Shown here piece after piece: positions 50,335 through 64,000 of a stretch of DNA of 64,000 nucleotides. A program made the position numbers and the translations under genes. Every line of letters starts with the position of its first letter. The first letter of the stretch is position 1. The DNA is from Prescottella defluvii (GTDB lineage: Bacteria > Actinomycetota > Actinomycetes > Mycobacteriales > Mycobacteriaceae): positions 4,545,872-4,609,871 of the forward strand of contig CP121458.1 in assembly GCA_029690005.1 (NCBI GenBank). Reading direction: 5' to 3'. The notes beneath the pieces were generated by a model, which did no database searches, was not told the origin of the DNA, and saw only the letters and a program-made list of their open reading frames with translations.

Positions 50335-51099
50335 ATGGACCAGTTCGCAGTCGATCCGGCACTCGTCGACGCGGCCCGTGCCGCACGCCGCGTGGTGGTG
50401 TTCAGCGGGGCCGGAATGTCCGCCGAGAGCGGAGTGCCGACGTTCCGCGACGCCCAGACCGGCCTGTGGGAACGCTACGACCCCGCCGAACTCGCGACGC
50501 CGCAGGCGTGGGAGAGCAACCCGGCCCTGGTGTGGGCGTGGTATCAGTGGCGCACGGGCCTGGTCCGGCGAGTGCAGCCGAACGACGGCCACCGCGCACT
50601 GGCGACGTGGGCACGGCAGGTACCGATGACGCTCGTCACCCAGAACGTCGACGATCTGCACGAACGGGCCGGCAGCGAAGTCGCCGCGCACCTCCACGGC
50701 AGCCTGTTCACCCCGCGCTGCAGCGTCTGCGCCGCGCCGCACCCGTCGGACGGCGGTCTCGACGTCGAACCCACCGGTCCGGTGACGCCGCCGACGTGTG
50801 CGAACTGCGGTGGCGACGTGCGACCGGGGGCGGTCTGGTTCGGCGAGCCGCTACCGGAGGACGCCTGGACGCGGGCCACCGACGCGGTCGACGCGTGCGA
50901 CCTGATGGTGGTCGTCGGCACGTCCGCGGTGGTGTATCCGGCCGCGGGACTACCGCTGCGCGCGGTCGAGTCGGGTGCCACGGTGATCGAGATCAACCCG
51001 GACGCGACGGACCTGAGCGGACTGGTCCACCACTCGTGGCGCACCACCGCAGCCGTCGGGCTGCCCGCTCTCGTCGCCGCCATCGACGACGGTCGCTGA
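50335..51099 (+). CDS. Sirtuin, NAD-dependent protein deacylase (SirT5-like)
   Basis: 254 aa from ATG 50335. 'RVVVFSGAGMSAESGVPTFR' is the NAD-binding signature; 'LVTQNVDDLHERAG' and catalytic His in 'VAAHLHGSLFTPRC'. Zn Cys pairs are 'CSVC' and 'CANC'. 'WAWYQWRTGLV' has the Tyr-x-x-Arg that marks class III sirtuins (SirT5/CobB desuccinylases). 'VVGTSAVVYPAAGLP' and 'EINPDATDLSG' complete it. Divergent from udgB. Confidence 0.92.
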   Translation: MDQFAVDPALVDAARAARRVVVFSGAGMSAESGVPTFRDAQTGLWERYDPAELATPQAWESNPALVWAWYQWRTGLVRRVQPNDGHRALATWARQVPMTLVTQNVDDLHERAGSEVAAHLHGSLFTPRCSVCAAPHPSDGGLDVEPTGPVTPPTCANCGGDVRPGAVWFGEPLPEDAWTRATDAVDACDLMVVVGTSAVVYPAAGLPLRAVESGATVIEINPDATDLSGLVHHSWRTTAAVGLPALVAAIDDGR

Positions 51100-51259: not shown

Positions 51260-52140
51260 GTGCCTCCCCGTCTCGTATCCGTGATCATCCCGGTGCGCAA
51301 CGCGGCGGAACTGATCGACGGACAGCTCGAGGCCCTCGCCCGCCAGGACTACTCGGAAGAGTTCGAAACCGTCGTCAGCGACAACGGATCCACCGACGGA
51401 CTCGCAGCACATCTCGCAGACCATCCCCTCACCGATCGACTGACGCTCCGCTGCGTCGACAGCTCCGGCGGCCGCGGCATGGCGTACGCGCGCAACGTGG
51501 GCATCGCTGCGGCGCAGGGCGACTTCCTCGCGTTCTGCGACGGCGACGACCAGGTGCACGCAGACTGGCTCAGCGAACTGGTACGCGCCGCGGACGGGTT
51601 CGACGCGGTCGGCGGCGCCGTGGACACCACGACACTGAACTCCCCGGAAGTCGCATCGTGGCGAGTCCTGCCCGAGCGTCACGAGCGGTTCGGTGCGGAC
51701 GAATCCTGCCGTACGCAATCGGATGCAACTTCGGGGCCTGGCGGTCGAGCCTCGAGATGATCGGCGGGTTCGACCACACCTTCACCGACGGCGCCGACGA
51801 CGTCGCGACGTCGTGGCGACTGCAACTCGCCGGAATGACCCTGGGGCACGCGCCGGATGCGTTGGTCGCGTACAGATTCCGTGACACCTTCCGCGGCGCC
51901 TGGGACCAGTCGAGTCGGTACGGGCGGAACTCGGTGCTGCTCCACCTCGCATTCCGCGATTACGGGCACGCGCGCCGGTCGATGCGCGCCTTCGGGTCGT
52001 CAGTCCTGGGACTGGTGCTCTTCAATCCGCTCGTGCCGCGGTTCGTCGCTCGTGCCCCGCGGGGACTGTGGGTCTCGGAGACCGCGTTCCTGGTCGGCCG
52101 GCTCCGCGCCGCATGGAAACAGAGGGTCTTCTATGTCTGA
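51260..52140 (+). CDS. Family 2 glycosyltransferase, paralogue 1 (frameshifted)
   Basis: About 293 aa from GTG 51260. GT-A fold: 'VSVIIPVRNAAELIDGQLEA', 'VVSDNGSTDGLAAHLADHPL', DxD 'FLAFCDGDDQVHADWLSEL', acceptor region 'AIGCNFGAWRSSLEMIGGFD'. The tail ends 'KQRVFYV'. One G is missing near 51705. No C-terminal membrane anchor is obvious apart from a moderately hydrophobic stretch (SSVLGLVLFNPLVPRFV). First of three tandem paralogues; overlaps the next by 8 bp. Confidence 0.82.
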
Positions 52141-53035
52141 TGCGATGCGCCCGACTCCCGCGCTGATCTCGGTCGTGATCGCGGCCCTCGACATCAAGGG
52201 AATCATCGACGTCCAGTTGACGGCGCTCGCACAGCAGGATTACGACGGCGTCTTCGAGGTCGTCGTCGCCGACAACGGGTCGACCGACGGACTCGAGGAG
52301 TACCTGCGGCACCACCCGCTCCGCGACAGACTGCAACTGTCTTGGGCGGACGCGTCGGACGCGCGCGGCGTCAGCCACGCCCGGAATGTCGGTGTCGCCC
52401 GGTCTTCGGGCGAGTTCCTCGCGTTCTGCGACGCCGACGACCGCGTCCACCCGGACTGGCTGCGCCACCTCGCCACGGCCGCAATGCGTTTCGATGCAGT
52501 GGCCGGCTCCCTCGATGGGCGCCCACTGTCGAGTGAGCGGGCCGTGGCCTGGCGCCCACTGTCGGACGTGGCGACCCAACCCACCTCGGCCAATGCCCGG
52601 TTCCCGTGGGGCGGCGGCGGGAACATGGGGATCTGGCGCGAGGTGTTCGACGAGATCGGCGGGTGGGACACCTCGTACGTGTACGCGCTCGAGGACATGG
52701 AGTTCAGCTGGCGCCTGCAGTTGACGGGCCACTCTCTGGGTTGGGAACCGCGCGCGGTGGTGGACTACCGGCTGCGCGACGATCTCCGCTCGCTCTACCG
52801 CCAGTCGTTCGCCTACGGCCGCGGCGAGGTGCAGCTCTACCGGGACCACCGCTCGACGTGCATGTCCGGGCGCCCCGTTCCGTACCTCGTCCTGCTGATC
52901 GTGCTCATCGTCATCCGCAATCCGCTCCTGCCGACCACCCTGACGAGACTGCCACGCGGACAATGGCTCTGGCACGTCAGTGCCCTACTCGGACGCGTCG
53001 CCGGGAGTCGCGAGTTCGACGTCTTCTACGTGTAG
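52133..53035 (+). CDS. Family 2 glycosyltransferase, paralogue 2
   Basis: 300 aa, intact. 'ISVVIAALDIKGIIDVQLTA', 'VVADNGSTDGLEEYLRHHPL', DxD 'FLAFCDADDRVHPDWLRHL', 'GGGGNMGIWREVFDEIGGWD', 'EDMEFSWRLQLTGHSLGWEP'. A hydrophobic stretch 'VPYLVLLIVLIVIRNPLLPT' near residue 255 may associate with membrane, and the protein ends 'FDVFYV'. Clearly a duplicate of its neighbours. Sugar donor and acceptor unknown. Confidence 0.85.
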   Translation: MSDAMRPTPALISVVIAALDIKGIIDVQLTALAQQDYDGVFEVVVADNGSTDGLEEYLRHHPLRDRLQLSWADASDARGVSHARNVGVARSSGEFLAFCDADDRVHPDWLRHLATAAMRFDAVAGSLDGRPLSSERAVAWRPLSDVATQPTSANARFPWGGGGNMGIWREVFDEIGGWDTSYVYALEDMEFSWRLQLTGHSLGWEPRAVVDYRLRDDLRSLYRQSFAYGRGEVQLYRDHRSTCMSGRPVPYLVLLIVLIVIRNPLLPTTLTRLPRGQWLWHVSALLGRVAGSREFDVFYV

Positions 53036-53051
53036 GAACCAGGGAGGATCC

Positions 53052-53936
53052 ATGTCACGCACGCCCGCTCTCGTCTCGGTGGTCCTTCCCGCGTTGAACG
53101 CGACGCCGGTCATCGACGTGCAACTCGCCGCGCTGGCGGGGCAGGACTACCCGGGCGAGTTCGAGGTGATCGTCGCCGACAACGGTTCGACCGACGGACT
53201 GGCCCGGCATCTGTCCGGACATCCTCTGGCCGAACGGCTTCGGCTGCGCCGTGTGGACGCCGGGGCGGCACCCGGCGCCGCGCACGCGCGCAACGTCGGT
53301 GTCGACGCCGCCCGCGGCGACTTCATCGTCTTCTGCGACGCCGACGACCAGGCCCACCCGCAGTGGCTCCGACGTCTCGTTGCGCGGGCCGCAGACTTCG
53401 ACGCCGTCAGCGGCCCAGTCGAGACGACCACCCTCAACTCCGCACGCACAGCCGAATGGACGCCGGTCAATGCGCCGACGTCCGTACCGAGGTCCCGGAC
53501 TGTTCCCGGTGGCCGGCAGTTGCAACCTGGGGATGTGGCGCAGCACGATCGACAAGGTGGGACCGTGGGACGTCGCCTGCCTCGGCGGCGGTGAGGACGT
53601 CGACTACTGCCTGCGAATCCAACTCGCGGGGCTCACATTCGGCCACGAACCCGAAGCGATGATGTCCTACCGGGTGAAGAGTTCGTACCCGCAACTGTGG
53701 CGTCAGCAGTACGCGTGGGCCCAGTCGGACGTCGACACGTTCGTGCGGTACCGCGATCGCGGCCACCGCCGCCGGAATCCACTGCTCGCCCTCGCCATGC
53801 CCGTGCTGCTGGTGCTGCGCAATCCGCTGCTCCCCCAATCGGTCACGAAGCTGCCGACGGGGACGTGGATCTGCTACCTCGCCGGGTTCGCCGGCCGCAT
53901 CCGCGGCAGCATCCGGCACGGGTCCTCTACGTGTGA
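53052..53936 (+). CDS. Family 2 glycosyltransferase, paralogue 3 (two frameshifts)
   Basis: About 294 aa from ATG 53052 (AGGGAGGATCC in front). 'VSVVLPALNATPVIDVQLAA', 'IVADNGSTDGLARHLSGHPL', DxD 'FIVFCDADDQAHPQWLRRL', 'VAGSCNLGMWRSTIDKVGPW', 'EDVDYCLRIQLAGLTFGHEP'. An extra base near 53500 and a missing one near 53912; with the latter the protein ends 'RVLYV', matching the other paralogues. Converges on the fourth glycosyltransferase with only three bases between stops. Confidence 0.82.
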
Positions 53937-53939
53937 CTA

Positions 53940-54858
53940 CTACAGGTACAGGTGGCGCTGCTCGATGCTGCCCGGATCCGTCCCGTGACGGCCCCGGCCA
54001 CCCAGTACCACTGGCCGCGGCGCCCGGCCGGCCAGTTCCACGGCAACGCCGGCAGCCGGAACAGCAGCCACCCGAGGTAGCCGAACAGGATCAGCGGATT
54101 GGTGCCGCGGGCGCCCTGGGCCGCGTACTGCTTCGCCAGCCGGGCCTCCGCCATGTTGTACTCGACGGCCTGGTCGAACATCTCCCGGCGGGTGGTGCGA
54201 TAGCGGTACGCGACAAGGGCGTCCGGGTTGTAGCCGAGGTCGTATCCGCGCAGCTGGGCACGCCAACAGAAGTCGACGTCGCCGCCGGCGGTGGGATACG
54301 TGTCGTCCCAGCCGCCGATCTCGTCGAACACCGAACGCCAGATGCCCAGATTGCATCCGAACGTGCTCGGCAGGAAGTGCGCCATCAGCGGCAGCTTGTC
54401 CGGCGGCGGGAGCGCCCGCCACTGCGCGATCACCGGATCGTTGAGGGTCTCCGCTCGAGGAGCCCACCGACGATCCCGTGTTCCTTGGCGGTGACGGTCA
54501 GCGCGGTGAGCCAGCCCGGGTACACGGCGTCGTCCTGGTCGCAGTACGCGACGAAGTCGTACCGGGCGGCCCGGGTGCCGACGTTGCGCGCATGCGACGT
54601 CCCGGCGACGGCACTCGAATCCACCCACCGCAGCCCCAGACGGTCACGCAGGGGGTGCTGCTCGATGTGACTCCGCAGCTCCGCGCTGTTCTGGTTGTCG
54701 CTGACGACGACCTCGAACGCACCGTCGTAGTCCTGACGTGCGAGGGCCTCCAGCTGGATGTCGATCTCCGGGAGCGCGTTGTACGCGGCGACGACCACCG
54801 AAACCCCTGTCGGTGGTCCGAATGTCGCTTTGGCCAGTGGGCGCTCCCGGTCGGTCAC
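53940..54858 (-). CDS. Family 2 glycosyltransferase, paralogue 4, coupled to NRPS (two frameshifts)
   Basis: About 306 aa from GTG 54858, whose GTGA overlaps the NRPS stop. 'VSVVVAAYNALPEIDIQLEA', 'VVSDNQNSAELRSHIEQHPL', DxD 'FVAYCDQDDAVYPGWLTAL', 'STFGCNLGIWRSVFDEIGGW', 'GDVDFCWRAQLRGYDLGYNP'. Missing bases near 54450 and 53957; restored, it ends 'QRHLYL'. The nucleotide-binding DNGSTDG of the others is DNQNSAE here, so it is the most divergent copy. Coupling implies action on the NRPS product. Confidence 0.82.
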
Positions 54859-57800
54859 CTACACTCCTCGCATCGTCGGATGTCGCGATCGGCGCCGGAC
54901 GCATCGGCGGCCATCGTTCGTAGCACCGAAACGAACCGCTCCACGAAGCTTTGCGCGGTCGACTCGTCGAACAGCGCCGTCTGGTACAGCAAACCACCAG
55001 TGACGCCGGTCGGCACGCCGACCGAGTCGTAGTGGTCGTTCAGGCTGAACTCGATTTCGTGCTTCGCGACGGTCGTCGGCACCGGATGCTGTTCGATCGA
55101 CAGCCCGGGGAACTCCGCCGCGAGCCCGTCGGCGGCCCGCTGCAGGATCAGCGTGACCTGGAACAGCGGGTTGTAGGGCGAGTTCGGGTCGAGACCGAGT
55201 GCCCGCTCGAGCCGCGGGTTCGACACGTCCGGGTTCGCGTACGCAGCCAGCGCCGCCGATCGAACCGCGGCGACGAGGTCCGCGACCGACTCCCCCTCGT
55301 CGACGACCACCCGCATCAGAACGTCGTCGGAGAAGTTTCCGACGAGGTCGTCGAGTTCGGGCTCGCCGCGTCCCGCGATGGACGTGGCGACCGTGACGTC
55401 CTTCTCGTTGGCGAACCTGCTGACGCACAACGCGAACGCCGCCTGCAGCACCATGAACAGACTCGCGCCGCACTCCCGGGCCAGCGACACGAGGGCCGCG
55501 TGGGTCTCCGCGTCGAGGTGGACCGGTATGGCTGCTCCCGCCGTGGGACGCACCGCCGGCCGCGGCCGGTCGGTCGGGAAGTCCAGGAACCCGGGCCGGT
55601 CCGCGAGCGCGCGCGCCCAGTAGTCCATCTGGCGGTGTGCCTCGCTCGACGGATCGTCGAACTCACCCAGCAGCGAGTGCTTCCACACCGCGTAGTCGGC
55701 GAACTGCACGGGCAGCGGATCCCACTGCGGTGCGACGCCGATCGCCCGCGCCGCGTACGCCACCACGACGTCGCGGGTGAGCGGCCCGACGCTGAAGCCG
55801 TCAGCCGAGACGTGGTGCACGACGACGCCGAGCACATAGTCGTCCGGTCCGATGCGGAACAACCGCATCCGCATCGGCAGCTCGGCGGCGACGTCGAAAT
55901 TGCCCCCACAGGAACGCGTTCAGCCCGGCATCGAGGGACGCCGGATCCACATCGACGACCTCCACCTGCGGAATCGCGTCCTCCGCAGGCACGATCACCT
56001 GCACCGGACCGTCCGCGGTCGCCGGGTACACCGTCCGCAGCGATTCGTGGCGGGCGACGACGTCGCCGGCCGCAGCGCGCAGCACCGTGACGTCGATCGC
56101 GCCGTGCAGCCGCAGCGCGAACGGAATGTTCCACTCACCGCCGCGGGTGCGCTGGTTGTCGAACCAGATCCGCTCCTGCGCCGGCGCCGACGGGATCCGC
56201 GCCGGCCGCTCCGACGCCGTCAGCCTCGGTCGGTCGAGCCCGACGTGCGCATCCACCCGCGACGCCAACGCCGAGACCGTCGGCACCTCGAAGAACTCGC
56301 GGACCGTCAGCGCAGTCCCGAACGCCTCGTTGATCCGAGCCATGGCCCGGGTCGCCGACAACGAGTTACCGCCGACCTCGAAGAAGCTGTCGTCGGCGCC
56401 GACCCGGGCACCGCCCGTCAGGTCCGCGAAGATGCCCGCGACGATCTCCTCCGTGGCGGTGACTGGCTCGCGGAAACCGCTGCTGCTCGCGAACTCCGGC
56501 GCCGGCAGTGCGCGCCGGTCGAGCTTGCCCGTGACGCCGAGCGGAAGCGCGTCGAGCAGCACGACGGTCGACGGCACCATGTAGCTGGGCACGCGTTCGC
56601 CGACGAACGCCAGCAGTCCGGCAACGTCGGCGCGGTCCCGGGTACCGGCACCGCGTAGCCGACGAGATGCTCGGCGCCACCGGGCGCCCGGTGCACCGTT
56701 ACGACGGACCGATCGACGTCGGGGTGCGCGGACAGCGCAGTCTCGATCTCCCCAAGCTCGATCCGGAAGCCGCGGACCTTCACCTGGAAATCGGTGCGGC
56801 CCAGGTAATCCAGGACGGCTCCCGACCCCCGCGGCAACCACCGGACCAGGTCACCGGTGCGGTACATGCGGGTACCGGCAGTGCCGAACGGGTCGGCCAC
56901 GAACCGGTCGGACGTCAGGTCGGCCCGTCCCACGTATCCGCGGGCGAGCTGAGCGCCCGCGAGGTACAGCTCGCCGGGCACCCCGACCGGCACCGGCTGC
57001 AGGCGTGCGTCGAGCACGTACACGCGGGTGTTCCACTCCGGCACACCGATCGGCACGGACGGACCGTCGTCGGGCCCGCACGCGTGATGCGTGACGCTCA
57101 CCGCGGCCTCGGTCGGGCCGTACAGGTTGAACACCGGGGCGTCGTTCGCCTCGCCGAACCTGCGGACCACCTCGGCGGGCAGCGCCTCGCCGATGCAGAT
57201 CACCCGGCGCAACGCGTCGAGCGGCTCGTCGCCCGCCGACGCGAGGAACGCGGTCAGCAGCGACGGCACGAAGTGCACCGTGGTGACGCGGTGATCGCGC
57301 ATCAGCCGCGCCAGGTACGCCGGATCCTGCTCGCCGCCGGCCTTCGCGACCACCAGCCGAGCACCCGCGGTGAGCGCCCACCAGAACTCCCACACCGACA
57401 GGTCGAACGTCGCCGCCGTCCGCAGCAGCACCGCATCGGTGCCGTCGAGTGCGAACTGCGCCTGCTTCCAGAGCAACTGGTTGACGATCGCCGCGTGCGG
57501 AACCGCGACACCCTTGGGCCGGCCCGTCGAGCCCGACGTGTAGATCACGTACGCCGTGTTCTCCGCGCGCAGCGGTGCCCGCAGCTCGGCGTCGGTGATC
57601 GGATCGGACCGGTGCCCGCTGAGGTCGACGGTGTCAACGTCGATCCGCTCGGCCGTGTCCGGAACCGGAACCGTCTCGCCGCTGGTCGTGAGAACGACCA
57701 TGGGAGAGGCGGATTCGAGTACATACTCGGTCCGCTCGACGGGGTGGTCCGGGTCGATCGGAACGTACGCGCCGCCCGCCTTGGCGACCGCGTACATCGC

Positions 57801-60800
57801 GACCAGCAGCTCGAGCGACCGCCGGATCGCGAGAGCGACCCGGATCTCGGGCCCGACGCCTCGCGAGATCAGCTCCCCGGGCGAGACGATTCGCGAGGGC
57901 GTCGAACTCGGCGTACGTGAGTTCGAACTCCTCGACCACGACCGCCACCGCGTCCGGAGTGGCGCGCACCCGCTGCGCGAACAGGTCGGGCAGCGTCGCC
58001 GACGGCACCTCGTGCCGGGTGGCGTTCCACTCGACCAGCACCGCGCGCCGCTCGGCCTCGCCCTGCAGGTCGATGTCCCCGATCACCGCGCGACGGTCGG
58101 CGACAACGGCACGCAGCAGCCGTTCGAATCGGTTCGCGAACCGCGCGACGGTCGCCCCGTCGAACAGGTCCGCGGCGTACGTGAACGACGCGGCGATGTC
58201 CGCCGGCTCCCCATCGTCGTCGCGATGGTCGACGAGCGTCAGGTGCAGATCGAACTTCGCGGGTTCGAATCCCGCGTCGACGACGTCGATGTCGAGACCG
58301 GGAAGCTCGAACCTGGTGCGGCCGAGGTTCTGCAGCGACAGCGCCACCTGGAACAGCGGGTGCCGCGCGGTGGACCGCTCCGGGTCGAGGACCTCGACGA
58401 TCCGCTCGAACGGCAGGTCCGCGTGGGCGAACGCGGCCAGGTCGATGCCGCGCACCCGGTCCAGCAGGTCCGCGAAGGTGGCATCGGCGTGCACGTCCGT
58501 CCGCAGCGCGAGGGTGTTGACGAACATGCCGACCAGACCGTCGAGTGCCTGCTCGCCGCGACCCGCGATCGGGGTGCCGATCGTGATGTCGCCGGCGCCG
58601 CTGAGCCTGCTCAGCAGGGCCGCGAACGCGGCGTGCACCACCATGAACAGGGTGGCGCCCTGCCTGCGTGCGAGAGCGAGCAGCGCCCGGTGCAGCGACG
58701 CGTCGAGCGTGAACGCGTGTGTCTGCCCGCGGAACGACTGCACGGCCGGACGCGGACGGTCGGTCGGCAGATCCAGCTGGTCCGGCAGGGCCGCGAGCGT
58801 GTCCGACCAGTAAGCGATCTGGCGGGCGGCGAAGGATCCGCCGTCGTTCTCGTCGCCGAGAACCGCTCGCTGCCACAGGCTGTAGTCGGCGTACTGGACC
58901 GGCAGCGGCGCCCACGACGGTTCGAGCCCCTGACGGAACGCGGCGTACGCGACCATCACGTCCCGGGCGAGCGGGGCCACCGAGAACCCGTCGGCGGAGA
59001 TGTGGTGCACGACGAGCACGAGTACGTGGTCGTCGGGCCCGACCCGCAGGAGCGCCACCCGCAGCGGCGCCTCGGCGGTGACGTCGAATCCTGCGCCCGC
59101 CAGTCCGACGACCATCGGCAGGATCTCGGGTTCGTCGACCGCCACCGGTTCCAGCGTCGGAACCACGTGTGCCGCCGGCACGATCACCTGGTGCGGGCCG
59201 TTCGTCGAGTCCCGGGTACACCGTGCGCAGTGCCTCGTGCCGATCGACGGTCGCGGCGATCGCGGCGTGCAGCGCGTCGACGTCGAGCGCACCGGACAAC
59301 CGCAACGCCATCGGGATGTTCTCGGCCCCCGACGTCGGGTCGAAGCGGTTGAGGAACCGACATGCGCTGCTGAGCCGGCGACAGCGGGATCCGGTCGGGC
59401 CGCGCGAGCGTGCCCAGTTCCGGCCGGAGTCGGTGCGGGCCGACTCCGCTCGCGCGGCCAGCGCGGCCGCGGTGGGGTGCTCGAACAGTTCGCGGATGCC
59501 CAGCGCAGTGCCGAGCACCGCGTTGACTCGGGCGATGAGCCGCGTCGCGAGCAGCGAGTTGCCACCCAGGTCGAAGAAGCTGTCGTCCACCGACACCCGC
59601 TCCAGGCCGAGCAGTTCGGCGAACACGCCGACGACCTTCTCCTCCACCGGGTTCGACGGCGCCCGGAACTCGCGGGTCGAGACGAACTCGGGAACGGGGA
59701 GCGCCCGGCGGTCGAGCTTGCCGCCCGCCGTCACCGGCAGCCGGTCGAGCACGACGACCTGGGTCGGAACCATGTAGGCGGGCAGCGACTCACCGATCCG
59801 CTCCCGCAGGCCCTCCGGGTCGAGGGACGCGGCCCGCTCGGGCACGACGTAGCCGACGAGGTGATCGCCGGTTCGGGAGTCGCTGTGCAGCACCACGACC
59901 GACTGCGCGACCTCGGTGCAGCCCACGAGCGCGGCCTCGATCTCACCGAGTTCGATGCGCAGTCCTCGCAGCTGGACCTGAGAGTCGGCGCGGCCGACGA
60001 AGTCGAGCAGACCGTCCCGGGTGCGCCGGACCAGGTCGCCCGTGCGGTACATGCGTCCACCGCCGTACGGGTCGGCCACGAACCGGGACGCTGTCAGTCC
60101 GCGCGCTGGTGGTACCCGCGCGCGACACCAGGACCGGACAGGTACAGCTCACCGATCACACCGACGGGTACCGGGCGCAGCCGCGAGTCGAGGATCGTCG
60201 CGCGGGCACCCGCGATCGGCGTGCCGATCGTGATCCGTTCGCCCACCGACAGCGGCTCGGTCATCGTGATGATGATCGTGGTCTCGGTGGGGCCGTAGCT
60301 GTTGAAGAACCGGCGTCCGGGCGCGAACCGCTCGACCAGTTCGGGCGGGCAGACGTCGCCACCGACGATCACCGTCTCGAGCGAGTCGAGGCCGTCGGTG
60401 TCGACGGTGCCCAGTGCCGCCGGCGCCGTGAGGATGTGCGTCACCTGCTGGTCCCGGATCAGCTCGGCGAGTTCGTGACCGCCGATCACCGCGGGCGGCG
60501 CCACCACGAGGGTGGCGCCGACACTGAATCCGGCGAGCATCTCGAACACCGAGGCGTCGAAGCTCGACGACGAGAACCGCAGCACCCGGGACCGCGGCGA
60601 CAGCGCCAGTTCGGTCCGGGCGTCGGCGCAGAAGGACACGAGGCCGGTGTGCTCGACGACGACGCCCTTCGGCAGTCCGGTGGACCCGGACGTGTAGATC
60701 ATGTACGCCGCGTTGGTGAGCACGATCGGCCCGCCGCGATCCTGTTCGGTGACGGCGGAATCCGAACGCTGCGCGCAATCGCGCTCGAGTTCGTCGGAAT

Positions 60801-63800
60801 CGAGCACCAGCCACTGCGTCGACTGCGGCAGCCGTTCGACGACGGCCGACGTCGTCAGGCCGACGTCCGCACCGGAGTCGGTGAGCATGTGCCGGATCCG
60901 GTCCGCGGGATGTGCCGGGTCGACCGGCACGAACGCGGCGCCGGTCTTGACGACCGCCCACATCGCGACAATCGAATCCACGGACCGCGGGAACGACAGC
61001 GCGACGAACCGCTCGCGGCCGACGCCCCGGTCGAGGAGCACCCGGGCCAGGCGGTTCGACCGCGCGTCGAGTTCGGCGTAGGTGAGGGCGACGCCGTCAC
61101 CGTGGACCGCCACCGCGTCCGGCGCGGACGCCGCACCCGCGGTGAGGATCTCGGCCATCGTGCGCGGGGCGACCGCCAACGGCGCCGGGTCCGGGGACGC
61201 GAGGGCCCGGTCGTGGTCGTCGAGCAGATCGAGGTCGCCCACCGGCAGGGCCGGATCGGTAGTGACCTGCGTGAGCGCGCGCACCAACTTGTCGGCGATC
61301 GCGGCCGCGGTCGCGGGATCGAACAGGTCCGTCGCGTAGGTGAGCGAGCCGAGGAGTCCCGCGGACGCCGAGGCGCGAAGCGTGAACTCGAGGTTGAACT
61401 TGGCGACGTCGGCACCCGGGTCGACAACGGTGGCCGTCACACCGGGAAGCTCGAGGACGGCCTCCCCGTGGTTCTGCAACGACAGCGCGACCTGGAACAG
61501 CGGCGAATATGCCTGCGACCGAGGCGGATCGACCACCTCGACGACCCGCTCGAACGGCACGTCGGACTGTGCGAAGGCCGCGAGATCGACCGACCGGACC
61601 CGTCGCAGCAGCCGGTCCCACGGCTCGGCCGGATCGACCTCGGTACGGAGCACGAGCGTGTTGACGAACATGCCCACCAGGTCGTCGAGTACGCGTTCGC
61701 CGCGTCCCGCGATGGGGGTTCCCACCGAGACGTCGGTGGTGGCGCCCAACCGGGCGAGCACCGCGGCCAGTCCCGCATGCAGCACCATGAACAGCGTCGT
61801 GGCGTGCTCCGCGGCGAGCGCCTCGAGCCGCCGGGCCACGTCCGCGTCGACCGCGAAGTCGACGCGCGCGGCGCGATACGACGCGACCGGCGGGCGCGGG
61901 CGGTCCAGCGGCAACTCGAGCACCGCCGGTGCTCCGTCGAGCCGCTCCCTCCAGTAGCCGAGTTGCTGCGCGGCGAGCGAGCGCGGATCGGCCTCGTCAC
62001 CCAGCACCCGGCGCTGCCACAGCGCGTAGTCCGCGTACTGCACCGCGAGGGGCGCCCAGCCGGGCTCCTCGCCGCGGACGCGGCTCGTGTACGCGGTCAT
62101 CACGTCCCGAGCCAGCGGCAGCGTCGAGACGCCGTCGGCGCTGATGTGATGCACGACGAGGACGAGCAAGACATCGTCGTCGGCCACCCGCAGCAGCCGG
62201 CCCCGCACGGGACGTCCGCGGTGACGTCGAAGCCGCCGGCGACCACCTCGGCGACCGCGTCCTGCAGCGCGGCCTCCCCGGGCACGGTGACCGGGTCGAG
62301 GTCGAGCGGAACCCGGTCCGCCGACACGATCACCTGGTGCGGCCCGTCCTCCGACTGCGGGAAGAACGTGCGCAGCGACTCGTGGCGGCCGAGCACGTCG
62401 CCGATCGCGGCCCGCAGCGCGGGGACGTCGAGACGGCCGGTCAGCCGCACCACGAGCGGAATGTTGTACGCGGGCGACGCCGGATCGAACTGGTTGAGGA
62501 ACCGACATGCGCTGCTGCGCGAGCGAGAGCGGGAGCTCCGCCGGGCGCGGTCCGGCGATCAGCGCGGGACGGTCGTCCTCGTGGCGGGCCCGGTCCACTC
62601 GCACCGACAGCGCGGCGACGGTGGGCGCGTCGAACAGTTCCCTGACACCGATCCTGGTGCGGCGCAGCTCGTTCACCCGGGCGACGACGCGGGTGGCACT
62701 GAGCGAGTTGCCGCCGAGGTCGAAGAAGTCGTCCTCGGCTCCGACACCGACGATGCCGAGGACGTCGGCGAACACGTCGGCGACGATCGCTTCGGTCCGG
62801 GTGCGCGGCTGGACGAACTCACGGGTCGGGAACACCGGTTCGGGCAGCGCCCGGGTGTCCACCTTCCCGGACGGCGTCAGCGGGAGGGCGTCGACCACCG
62901 TGACGACCGACGGCACCATGTATTCGGGAAGCCGGCCACGTGCGTGGACGACGACGTCTCTCGGGTCGACGGCCTGCCCGGACGTCGGCACGATGTACGA
63001 GACCAGCGCGTCGGCGCCACCGCCGCGGTGCCCGACCGTGACCGCGACGTCGACATCGGGATGCGACGCCAGGACCGCGTCGACCTCCCGCAGCTCGATC
63101 CGGTGTCCGCGCACCTTGACCTGGAAGTCGGTGCGGCCGAGGTATTCGAGTGAGCACTCGAGTCCGTTCGGCTGCCAGCGCACCAGGTCGCCGGTGCGGT
63201 ACATCCGGCTGCCGTCGGAGGCGTACGGGTCGGCCACGAACCGCTCCGCCGTGAGCGCCGCGCGATGGTGGTAGCCCCGCGCCAGGCCCTGCCCGGTCAC
63301 GTACAGCTCCCCCGCGACCCCGACCGGGACCGGGTGCAGCCGCCGGTCGAGGACCCGGACGCCGGTGCCGCGCACGGGTGCGCCGATCGACACGGTCTCG
63401 TCCGGGACCATCGGTCCGTAGTGGGTGGCCATGATGGTCGACTCGGTGGGTCCGTACGCGTTGAACATCGCGCGTCCCGGTGCCCAACGTCGTACCAGCG
63501 CAGCGTCGCACGCGTCACCACCGACGACGACCACGCGGACGTGCTCGAGCCCCGCCGGTTCGACGGTTGCCAGCGCGCCGGGCGTCACGAACGCGTGGGT
63601 CACCCGCTGTGCGCGGAGGACCTGCGCGAGTTCCTCGCCGCCGTACACACCGACCGGAACGACGACCGTCGTCGCCGCTCCCCCGACGGCCATGAGCAGC
63701 TCGAGGATCGAGGCATCGAAGCTGGGCGACGCGAAATGCAGTACCCGCGAGGAGGAGTCGACACCGTAGTGGCTCTGCTGTTCGGCCACGAACGCAGCCA

Positions 63801-64000
63801 GTCCGACGTGTGTGACCACCACGCCCTCGGGCACACCGGTGGAGCCGGATGTGTCAGATCATGTACGCCGGGTGCTCGGGGCGCAGCGGCCGCAGACGGT
63901 CGGCATCCGTGATCAGGGCCCCGGAATGCTCGGAGAGCCCGGACAGGACGTCGCCGTCGAGGACGGTCCACGCCACCGTGTCGGGCAGCGCGTCCCGGTG
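54855..64000 (-). CDS. Multimodular non-ribosomal peptide synthetase, 3' part (about ten frameshifts)
   Basis: Runs in from the right edge. Domains in order: A1 (64000 to about 62800), T1 ('[13 protein letters not shown]', about 62700), C2 (about 62520-61250, '[13 protein letters not shown]'), A2 (about 61150-59720), T2 ('[13 protein letters not shown]', about 59550), C3 (about 59370-58080, '[13 protein letters not shown]'), A3 (about 58000-56500), T3 ('[13 protein letters not shown]', about 56370), C4 (about 56190-54855, '[13 protein letters not shown]'). All C domains keep HHxxxDG. There is no epimerase or thioesterase; the chain ends with C4. By-eye 10-residue codes: A1 DALFVGAIMK, A2 DAFLIGSIIK, A3 DLWHIILVSK; A1/A2 look hydrophobic-type and A3 Ser-like, low certainty. 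Indels near 55905, 56645, 57885, 59195, 59360, 60085, 62200, 62505 and 63852. Confidence 0.88.

Follow-up and report, generated by a model that had tools for sequence, protein, structure and literature searches.

A conserved terminal condensation domain as the candidate release domain of a lipopeptide synthetase in Prescottella defluvii and its relatives

How does a nonribosomal peptide synthetase (NRPS) let go of its product when the protein stops at a condensation (C) domain? The question is raised by a stretch of 64,000 nucleotides from Prescottella defluvii (the window; positions 4545872-4609871 of contig CP121458.1, in a genome of 5.8 Mb that is 79% complete), which carries the 3' half of such a synthetase gene next to a group of family 2 glycosyltransferase (GT2) genes. 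A first-pass annotation of the sequence had proposed release without a thioesterase, either onto an external nucleophile or by cyclisation. We found that the terminal C domain is the true end of the protein, that it keeps its catalytic motif, and that its features for docking an acceptor carrier are changed. With moderate confidence, we propose that it is a specialised release domain, which would hand a lipopentapeptide over to a nucleophile off the carrier, likely a small and diffusible one.

The end of the protein has to be read across broken frames. The interval 54855-64000, first annotated as one NRPS, is not a single open reading frame (ORF), and its order of adenylation (A), carrier (T) and C domains is visible only across frames. 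The whole gene lies on the minus strand, with its 5' start ~9.6 kb past the window end (Table 1). When compared with the orthologue of P. agglutinans (G001), it is spanned by 15 collinear same-strand segments in changing frames (segments above 78% identity were kept), which are 80.6-95.1% identical to the reference and cover its residues 1-6260 except for one-residue gaps. Because the segments cover the whole orthologue, no domain is missing from the P. defluvii protein, and the breaks look like sequencing error. Throughout the window and the genome long genes, NRPSs above all, are split across frames, which suggests an assembly with many insertion/deletion errors.

Four further genomes of the genus carry the orthologue unbroken, as a single ORF of 6260 (G001), 6233 (G004), 6219 (G006) and 6248 (G008) amino acids, and all four have the order Cstart-A1-T-E-C-A2-T-C-A3-T-C-A4-T-C-A5-T-C, with a starter C domain (Cstart) and an epimerisation (E) domain in the first module (T2-T5 were assigned by pattern, T1 by Pfam in the source genome). 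The window holds (C)-A-T-C-A-T-C-A-T-C, and the sequence beyond 64 kb supplies Cstart-A-T-E and C-A-T upstream. The A-T-C-A-T-C-A-T-C order given at first is therefore correct for the last three modules, but not as a single ORF.

That the NRPS ends in a C domain, with HHVSADG kept and the stop directly after it, was confirmed. The stop overlaps the start of the next gene, a GT2, in the sequence GTGA in the window and in G001, G004 and G008; GTGA is also present in G006, where an in-frame ATG lies 8 nt past the stop. Scanning the genomes of 84,980 named species with two short peptide patterns gave at least 12 loci: the NRPS ended 3-19 amino acids past the match in eight of 12, three of 12 were stand-alone ORFs of Nocardia, and one was an internal domain (29% identical). 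The eight NRPS ends belong to three Prescottella-type records, two of Antrihabitans, Speluncibacter, Rhodococcus globerulus and R. maanshanensis; three of them coincide with records already counted among the four intact orthologues. Four intact orthologues and eight named loci thus rule out an extension of the protein past its terminal C domain, which the first-pass annotation had left as a possibility.

This domain is followed by neither a thioesterase nor a reductase nor an A-T module. Six of the eight loci with several C domains in the source genome have a match to the thioesterase family PF00975 1.8-2.1 kb past the last C match; the other two are the NRPS under study and one at 5.51 Mb. 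We could not find any PF00975 match above cut-off, nor any beta-lactamase-type PF00144 match, near the NRPS locus, nor any carrier-protein domain within 10 kb downstream on both strands. The downstream stand-alone thioesterase that would have spoken against the first-pass reading was thus not found at this cut-off.

Two other origins of the domain were considered and rejected. It could have been an E domain that relies on a separately encoded cyclase of the beta-lactamase type; however, ~0.28 Mb separates it from the closest PF00144 match, and the tree described below places the domain among elongation-type domains, apart from the four E rows (the E domain of module 1 has the motif HHLVVDGVSW). 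It could also have been the decaying remnant of a lost sixth module; its conservation equals that of internal domains. The terminal domain is 71.6-79.2% identical between orthologues (six pairs), within the 64-86% of internal C, E and Cstart domains, and it is therefore similarly constrained.

In a tree of 77 C domains (quick method; rows picked by similarity to the query, with 19 near-duplicates removed), a single clade, with a Shimodaira-Hasegawa-like approximate likelihood ratio test (SH-aLRT) value of 100, unites all 13 terminal and all 10 stand-alone rows and leaves out all 54 internal ones. By this placement the terminal domain appears to be a specialised, separate kind of C domain, not a leftover. 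Searching the family with a 15-sequence profile at a threshold of 1e-154, we found the clade in 33 of 401 genomes and eight of 31 genera, 13 times at an NRPS end and 20 times in stand-alone frames of 487-602 amino acids. Full-length members score 632-727 bits and the best non-member seen 505; this stricter profile supersedes an earlier family search at 1e-100, which matched 194 of 301 genomes with ordinary C domains scoring too. Within the genus, the terminal domain is present in five of 14 genomes, the source genome counted. All 20 stand-alone frames are in one genus, that of Nocardia aurantia; the loci of 19 were read, among which the match of G718 is interrupted by a stop, and one, G294, is known from its frame length only. 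The nearest other C domain lies 88 kb from the stand-alone one in G202, and no NRPS domain was found in the upstream flanks of two further stand-alone loci. Among 394 genomes of the class, the same profile at a looser threshold matched 26, and the clade signature given below was in three of 30 loci (the source genome and two of the Nocardia-type genus).

The residues that set the clade apart were counted in 13 terminal, 10 stand-alone and 37 elongation-type domains; E, Cstart and D-type domains, L041 and one long-branch row were left out of the counts. Numbering follows fuscachelin C3, for which PMC8097023 describes the contacts to the acceptor carrier; there R2906 contacts the phosphopantetheine phosphate. 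A frame break shortens the window's own terminal domain in the alignment, leaving its first quarter as a gap, and its residue at 2580 was read from the raw frame. The catalytic His is kept in all 13 terminal and all 10 stand-alone domains, and the full HHxxxDG in 12 and 10 of them, respectively. An Arg equivalent to R2906 is present in 37/37 elongation-type domains and in none of the terminal (0/13, the window's own counted) or stand-alone (0/10) ones, whose loop is changed or has become shorter. The Phe at interface position 2580 goes from 37/37 to 3/13 in terminal and 0/10 in stand-alone domains. Position 2584, also at the interface, is missing from all 10 stand-alone domains and from the 12 terminal ones that the alignment covers at this point. 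The acceptor side is uniform: position 2919 is Ile in every terminal domain (13/13) and Ile or Val in every stand-alone one (10/10), position 2950 is Glu in all of both (13/13 and 10/10), and the gate Arg 2577 is retained in the clade. Most members carry the signature GNF(S/A)DDVL(M/L)R, and in most PFE of elongation-type domains is replaced by (S/P)NP, WQR by WKH and AKF by AKH.

The same features were then read in a further set of 11 stand-alone and 27 other domains, from each of which one repeat was removed. All ten remaining stand-alone sequences, which had no part in the choice of features, have the signature, the Ile and the Glu and are without the Arg; among C domains outside the clade the Arg is present in 25 of 26 and the signature in 0 of 26. 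The sole exception, L104 (G638:C166:41275-42600), has Gln at the Arg position, and its ORF ends one residue past the domain. It may be a terminal C domain of independent origin, or may mark the boundary of a subunit, and as a single case it matches the direction expected if the Arg accompanies a downstream carrier. Within four NRPSs, the Arg was found in Cstart and elongation-type domains and is absent from E domains.

A model of the terminal domain built from 43 sequences has the C-domain fold, with a predicted local distance difference test (pLDDT) score of 93.6; an earlier one, based on only four, reached a pLDDT of 46.7 and was set aside as poor. The closest folds are the fuscachelin PCP-C structures (8g3i: Z 44.5, root-mean-square deviation (rmsd) 2.4, 428 residues aligned), tied with the X domain of teicoplanin biosynthesis (4tx2: Z 44.0, rmsd 2.7, 443 aligned, 30% identity). 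A solved domain titled HtmB2-CT, from the hangtaimycin NRPS, is also among the structural matches (PDB 8z0q: Z 41.6, rmsd 2.5, 425 aligned, 28% identity). Fungal terminal condensation (CT) domains are absent from the 50 structural matches listed, which excludes nothing.

Thioesterase-free release through the terminal C domain, as proposed at first, is thus supported by its conserved terminal position, its catalytic motif, the altered docking features and the existence of stand-alone homologues. In the mechanism that we propose, this five-module lipopeptide NRPS would acylate residue 1 with its starter C domain and convert it to the D form with its E domain, and four further residues would be added. 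The terminal C domain would then take the lipopentapeptide from T5 and condense it with a nucleophile off the carrier. This would most likely be a small amine or hydroxyl compound that diffuses into the acceptor tunnel, and the chain would leave as an amide or ester. The coupled GT2 and its neighbours would probably glycosylate the peptide or the acceptor part. We place the nucleophile off the carrier because the domain is terminal, its HHxxxDG is intact and its acceptor-carrier docking features are changed; a small diffusible acceptor is favoured over ring closure because the acceptor-side residues are uniform and are shared by stand-alone enzymes. The product is likely a released lipopentapeptide amide or ester, probably glycosylated. 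More tentatively, the Mycobacteriales C subfamily that bears the signature might be a ligase joining peptidyl chains to one common diffusible nucleophile, fused to the ends of glycolipopeptide synthetases and free in Nocardia, and its fused form might link the lipopeptide to a sugar or envelope molecule that is extended by the coupled GT2s.

Several points weigh against this proposal. One terminal member, G071 (L060, C12), for which no GT2 was found within 1.5 kb either, has HHISGDA in place of HHxxxDG. Phe 2580 is kept in three terminal domains, those of G001, R. maanshanensis and the window itself. The domain sets were chosen for their likeness to the query; the additional stand-alone members came from a search with the clade profile and are not fully independent. 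D-type C2 domains accept from a carrier yet are without the Arg, though they keep Phe 2580; therefore the docking argument is strong only within the elongation-type lineage, the apparent ancestor of the terminal domain. A uniform acceptor pocket, finally, would also fit a fixed nucleophile within the molecule.

Release within the molecule is indeed a possible, if doubtful, alternative, in which the terminal C domain closes a ring through a serine-type hydroxyl, the 3-hydroxyl of the acyl chain or a backbone amide, the last giving a diketopiperazine. Ring closure needs no acceptor carrier, and several members have in module 2 what we take to be a serine-type code; the position of this residue (module 2 or 3) and the length of the peptide (5 to 9 modules) vary, however, and the stand-alone Nocardia relatives share the acceptor-side residues. 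Fungal terminal C domains macrocyclise, as described in the available part of PMC11546977, but their sequences are only remotely similar (E ~4e-7, where the best match has 1e-90), and according to the same part they block the acceptor side, whereas the clade keeps the gate Arg and the uniform Glu. HtmB2-CT is among the structural matches, and hangtaimycin carries a terminal diketopiperazine (available part of PMC10624959), which HtmB2-CT may form.

We consider it improbable that the domain is a non-catalytic platform like the glycopeptide X domain, recruiting a tailoring enzyme such as the coupled GT2 and leaving release to hydrolysis or an unlinked thioesterase. The X domain 4tx2 is close in structure, X domains are closest to elongation-type C domains (available part of PMC8949500), and the GT2 is translationally coupled; however, X domains are inactive through a mutated motif (same part of PMC8949500), which is intact in all but one clade member counted, and the isolated stand-alone members (G202 and the two with no NRPS domain found upstream) have no adjacent peptide to serve. 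Still less probable is docking with an A-T(-TE) protein encoded elsewhere, by which the peptide would gain one residue. Where a subunit ends in a C domain, pairing with the next subunit is conceivable, and L104, outside the clade, also ends its ORF, but the next gene here is a GT2, the 10 kb downstream gave no match to a carrier-protein domain, and the Arg contacting phosphopantetheine is lost, in L104 too. That frame errors conceal a thioesterase or a sixth module could be suspected of a gene in 15 segments from a genome of this completeness; this reading has next to no likelihood, and is refuted by the intact ORFs of four relatives, which stop at the same place with the GT2 directly after. 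The specialised release domain with an acceptor off the carrier is thus the reading that we retain, and the features on which it draws are listed with their neighbours in Table 1.

Table 1. Domains of the NRPS within the window and genes adjoining its 3' end
Feature	Positions	Strand	Remark
3' half of NRPS gene	54858-64000	-	whole gene 73624-54858; broken into several frames
Condensation domain C4	61207-62504	-	elongation type
Adenylation domain A4 (PF00501)	60109-61137	-	orthologue code DAFLIGSIIK
Carrier domain T4	59450-59641	-	
Condensation domain C5	58042-59359	-	elongation type
Adenylation domain A5	56934-57872	-	orthologue code DLWHIILVSK, common to most terminal modules read in the clade
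Last carrier domain T5	56257-56442	-	FFEVGGNS
Terminal condensation domain	54858-56211	-	HHVSADG at 55817-55797; stop codon at 54857-54855
Coupled GT2 gene	53943-54858	-	start codon GTG shares bases with the TGA stop of the NRPS (GTGA); frames broken
Convergent GT2 gene	53052-53916	+	
GT2 gene	52118-53032	+	
GT2 gene	51263-52137	+	
SIR2-family gene	50407-50940	+	adjoins the GT2 cluster

The coupled glycosyltransferase of the first-pass annotation was confirmed by the overlap of its start with the NRPS stop and by its recurrence: in a survey with one GT2 query, a same-strand GT2 lies directly downstream in 10 of the 13 genomes with an NRPS-terminal member, its alignment beginning 0-60 nt past the stop. 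One of the remaining three has a convergent GT2 nearby, and none was found within 1.5 kb in the other two. Most loci read have three to four GT2 genes, and the window has the coupled one and three more on the plus strand. The coupled GT2 is of two types, one in P. agglutinans, Antrihabitans, Speluncibacter, R. globerulus and G078, the other in three Prescottella-type genomes. The GT2s likely glycosylate the peptide product. In G008 a gene resembling hexapeptide O-acetyltransferases stands between GT2 genes (L026:7971-8576), which suggests an acetylated sugar. Beyond the window, upstream of the NRPS, lie genes for a MarR-type regulator and for an acyl-CoA ligase. In NCBIfam the ligase comes closest to FadD11, with a score far under the model cut-off; together with the Cstart domain, this ligase suggests an N-acylated peptide.

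Adenylation codes were read by the motif spacing of the phenylalanine-activating reference. The last code in the eight named loci is DLWH(I/V/L)ILVSK in six and DVWDFILVSK in one, and was not read in one. Module 2 of the Prescottella enzymes has DVWHFSLVDK, which we take to be a serine-type code; module 2 is presumably of the serine type also in the enzymes of Antrihabitans, Speluncibacter, R. maanshanensis and R. globerulus. A literature search with six other code strings gave no match, and no residue is assigned to those codes. The clade NRPSs read whole or nearly so have five modules in G053, G087, G185 and G078, nine in G037 and at least six in G074; G185 and G078 are without an E domain.

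Some further observations concern the Nocardia-type genomes. A TetR-type regulator lies near the stand-alone members L037 and L038 (by Pfam) and L140 (by eye). G202 also encodes a giant NRPS of 14,582 amino acids (L139; G202:C1:5295120 onward), and frames of similar length occur in several other genomes of this type. It ends in E-C and, by eye, an apparent partial adenylation domain, and the nearest PF00975 match is ~90 kb off. It is conceivable that the free Nocardia enzyme acts for a giant NRPS of this kind, which has no thioesterase close by.

As a kind of system, a terminal C domain that releases the chain without a thioesterase is known from bacteria: EtcD, the NRPS of the diketopiperazine siderophore erythrochelin, and other bacterial NRPSs have one. 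The present clade is a new and recognisable variant. It resembles elongation-type (LCL) C domains in fold, in HHxxxDG, in the gate Arg and in sequence (the best solved ones, DhbF and fuscachelin C3, are ~36% identical), and differs from them in being terminal with no A-T after it, in having (S/A)DD for VNT (motif C5) and NP for FE (C6), and in being without the Arg that contacts phosphopantetheine (C7). The teicoplanin X domain is likewise a non-elongating C-like domain of a terminal module, close in fold, but has lost the catalytic motif that the clade keeps. HtmB2-CT, which bears CT in its title, is bacterial and has the same fold, although at 28% identity this domain is farther from the clade than several ordinary elongation domains are. 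Fungal CT domains such as TqaA share the end position, the missing thioesterase and the preserved catalytic motif; in contrast to the clade, they stand far off in sequence (TqaA E ~4e-7, DhbF 1e-90), and in the part of PMC11546977 available they release by macrocyclisation or hydrolysis with a blocked acceptor side. On sequence distances, then, the clade is nearer to ordinary elongation domains than to either fungal CT domains or HtmB2-CT.

The rhodococcal lipopeptide clusters of PMC5550956 are similar in pairing a Cstart NRPS with an acyl-CoA ligase, and many of them have no known product according to the text available; this text mentions an N-terminal condensation domain, and a terminal C domain acting in release was not found in it. 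Nor did we find, in the searchable literature (which covers few subscription papers), a recognised account of such a release domain in Rhodococcus, Nocardia or Prescottella, or a description of the glycolipopeptide-type cluster family that is flagged here in Prescottella, Rhodococcus, Antrihabitans and Speluncibacter. Genome-mining programs should not treat such clusters as incomplete. The free-standing relatives offer an accessible in vitro system for what a C domain accepts without an acceptor carrier. And to terminal-C release, described mainly for fungi in the available part of PMC11546977, the clade adds a conserved bacterial case with a readable signature.

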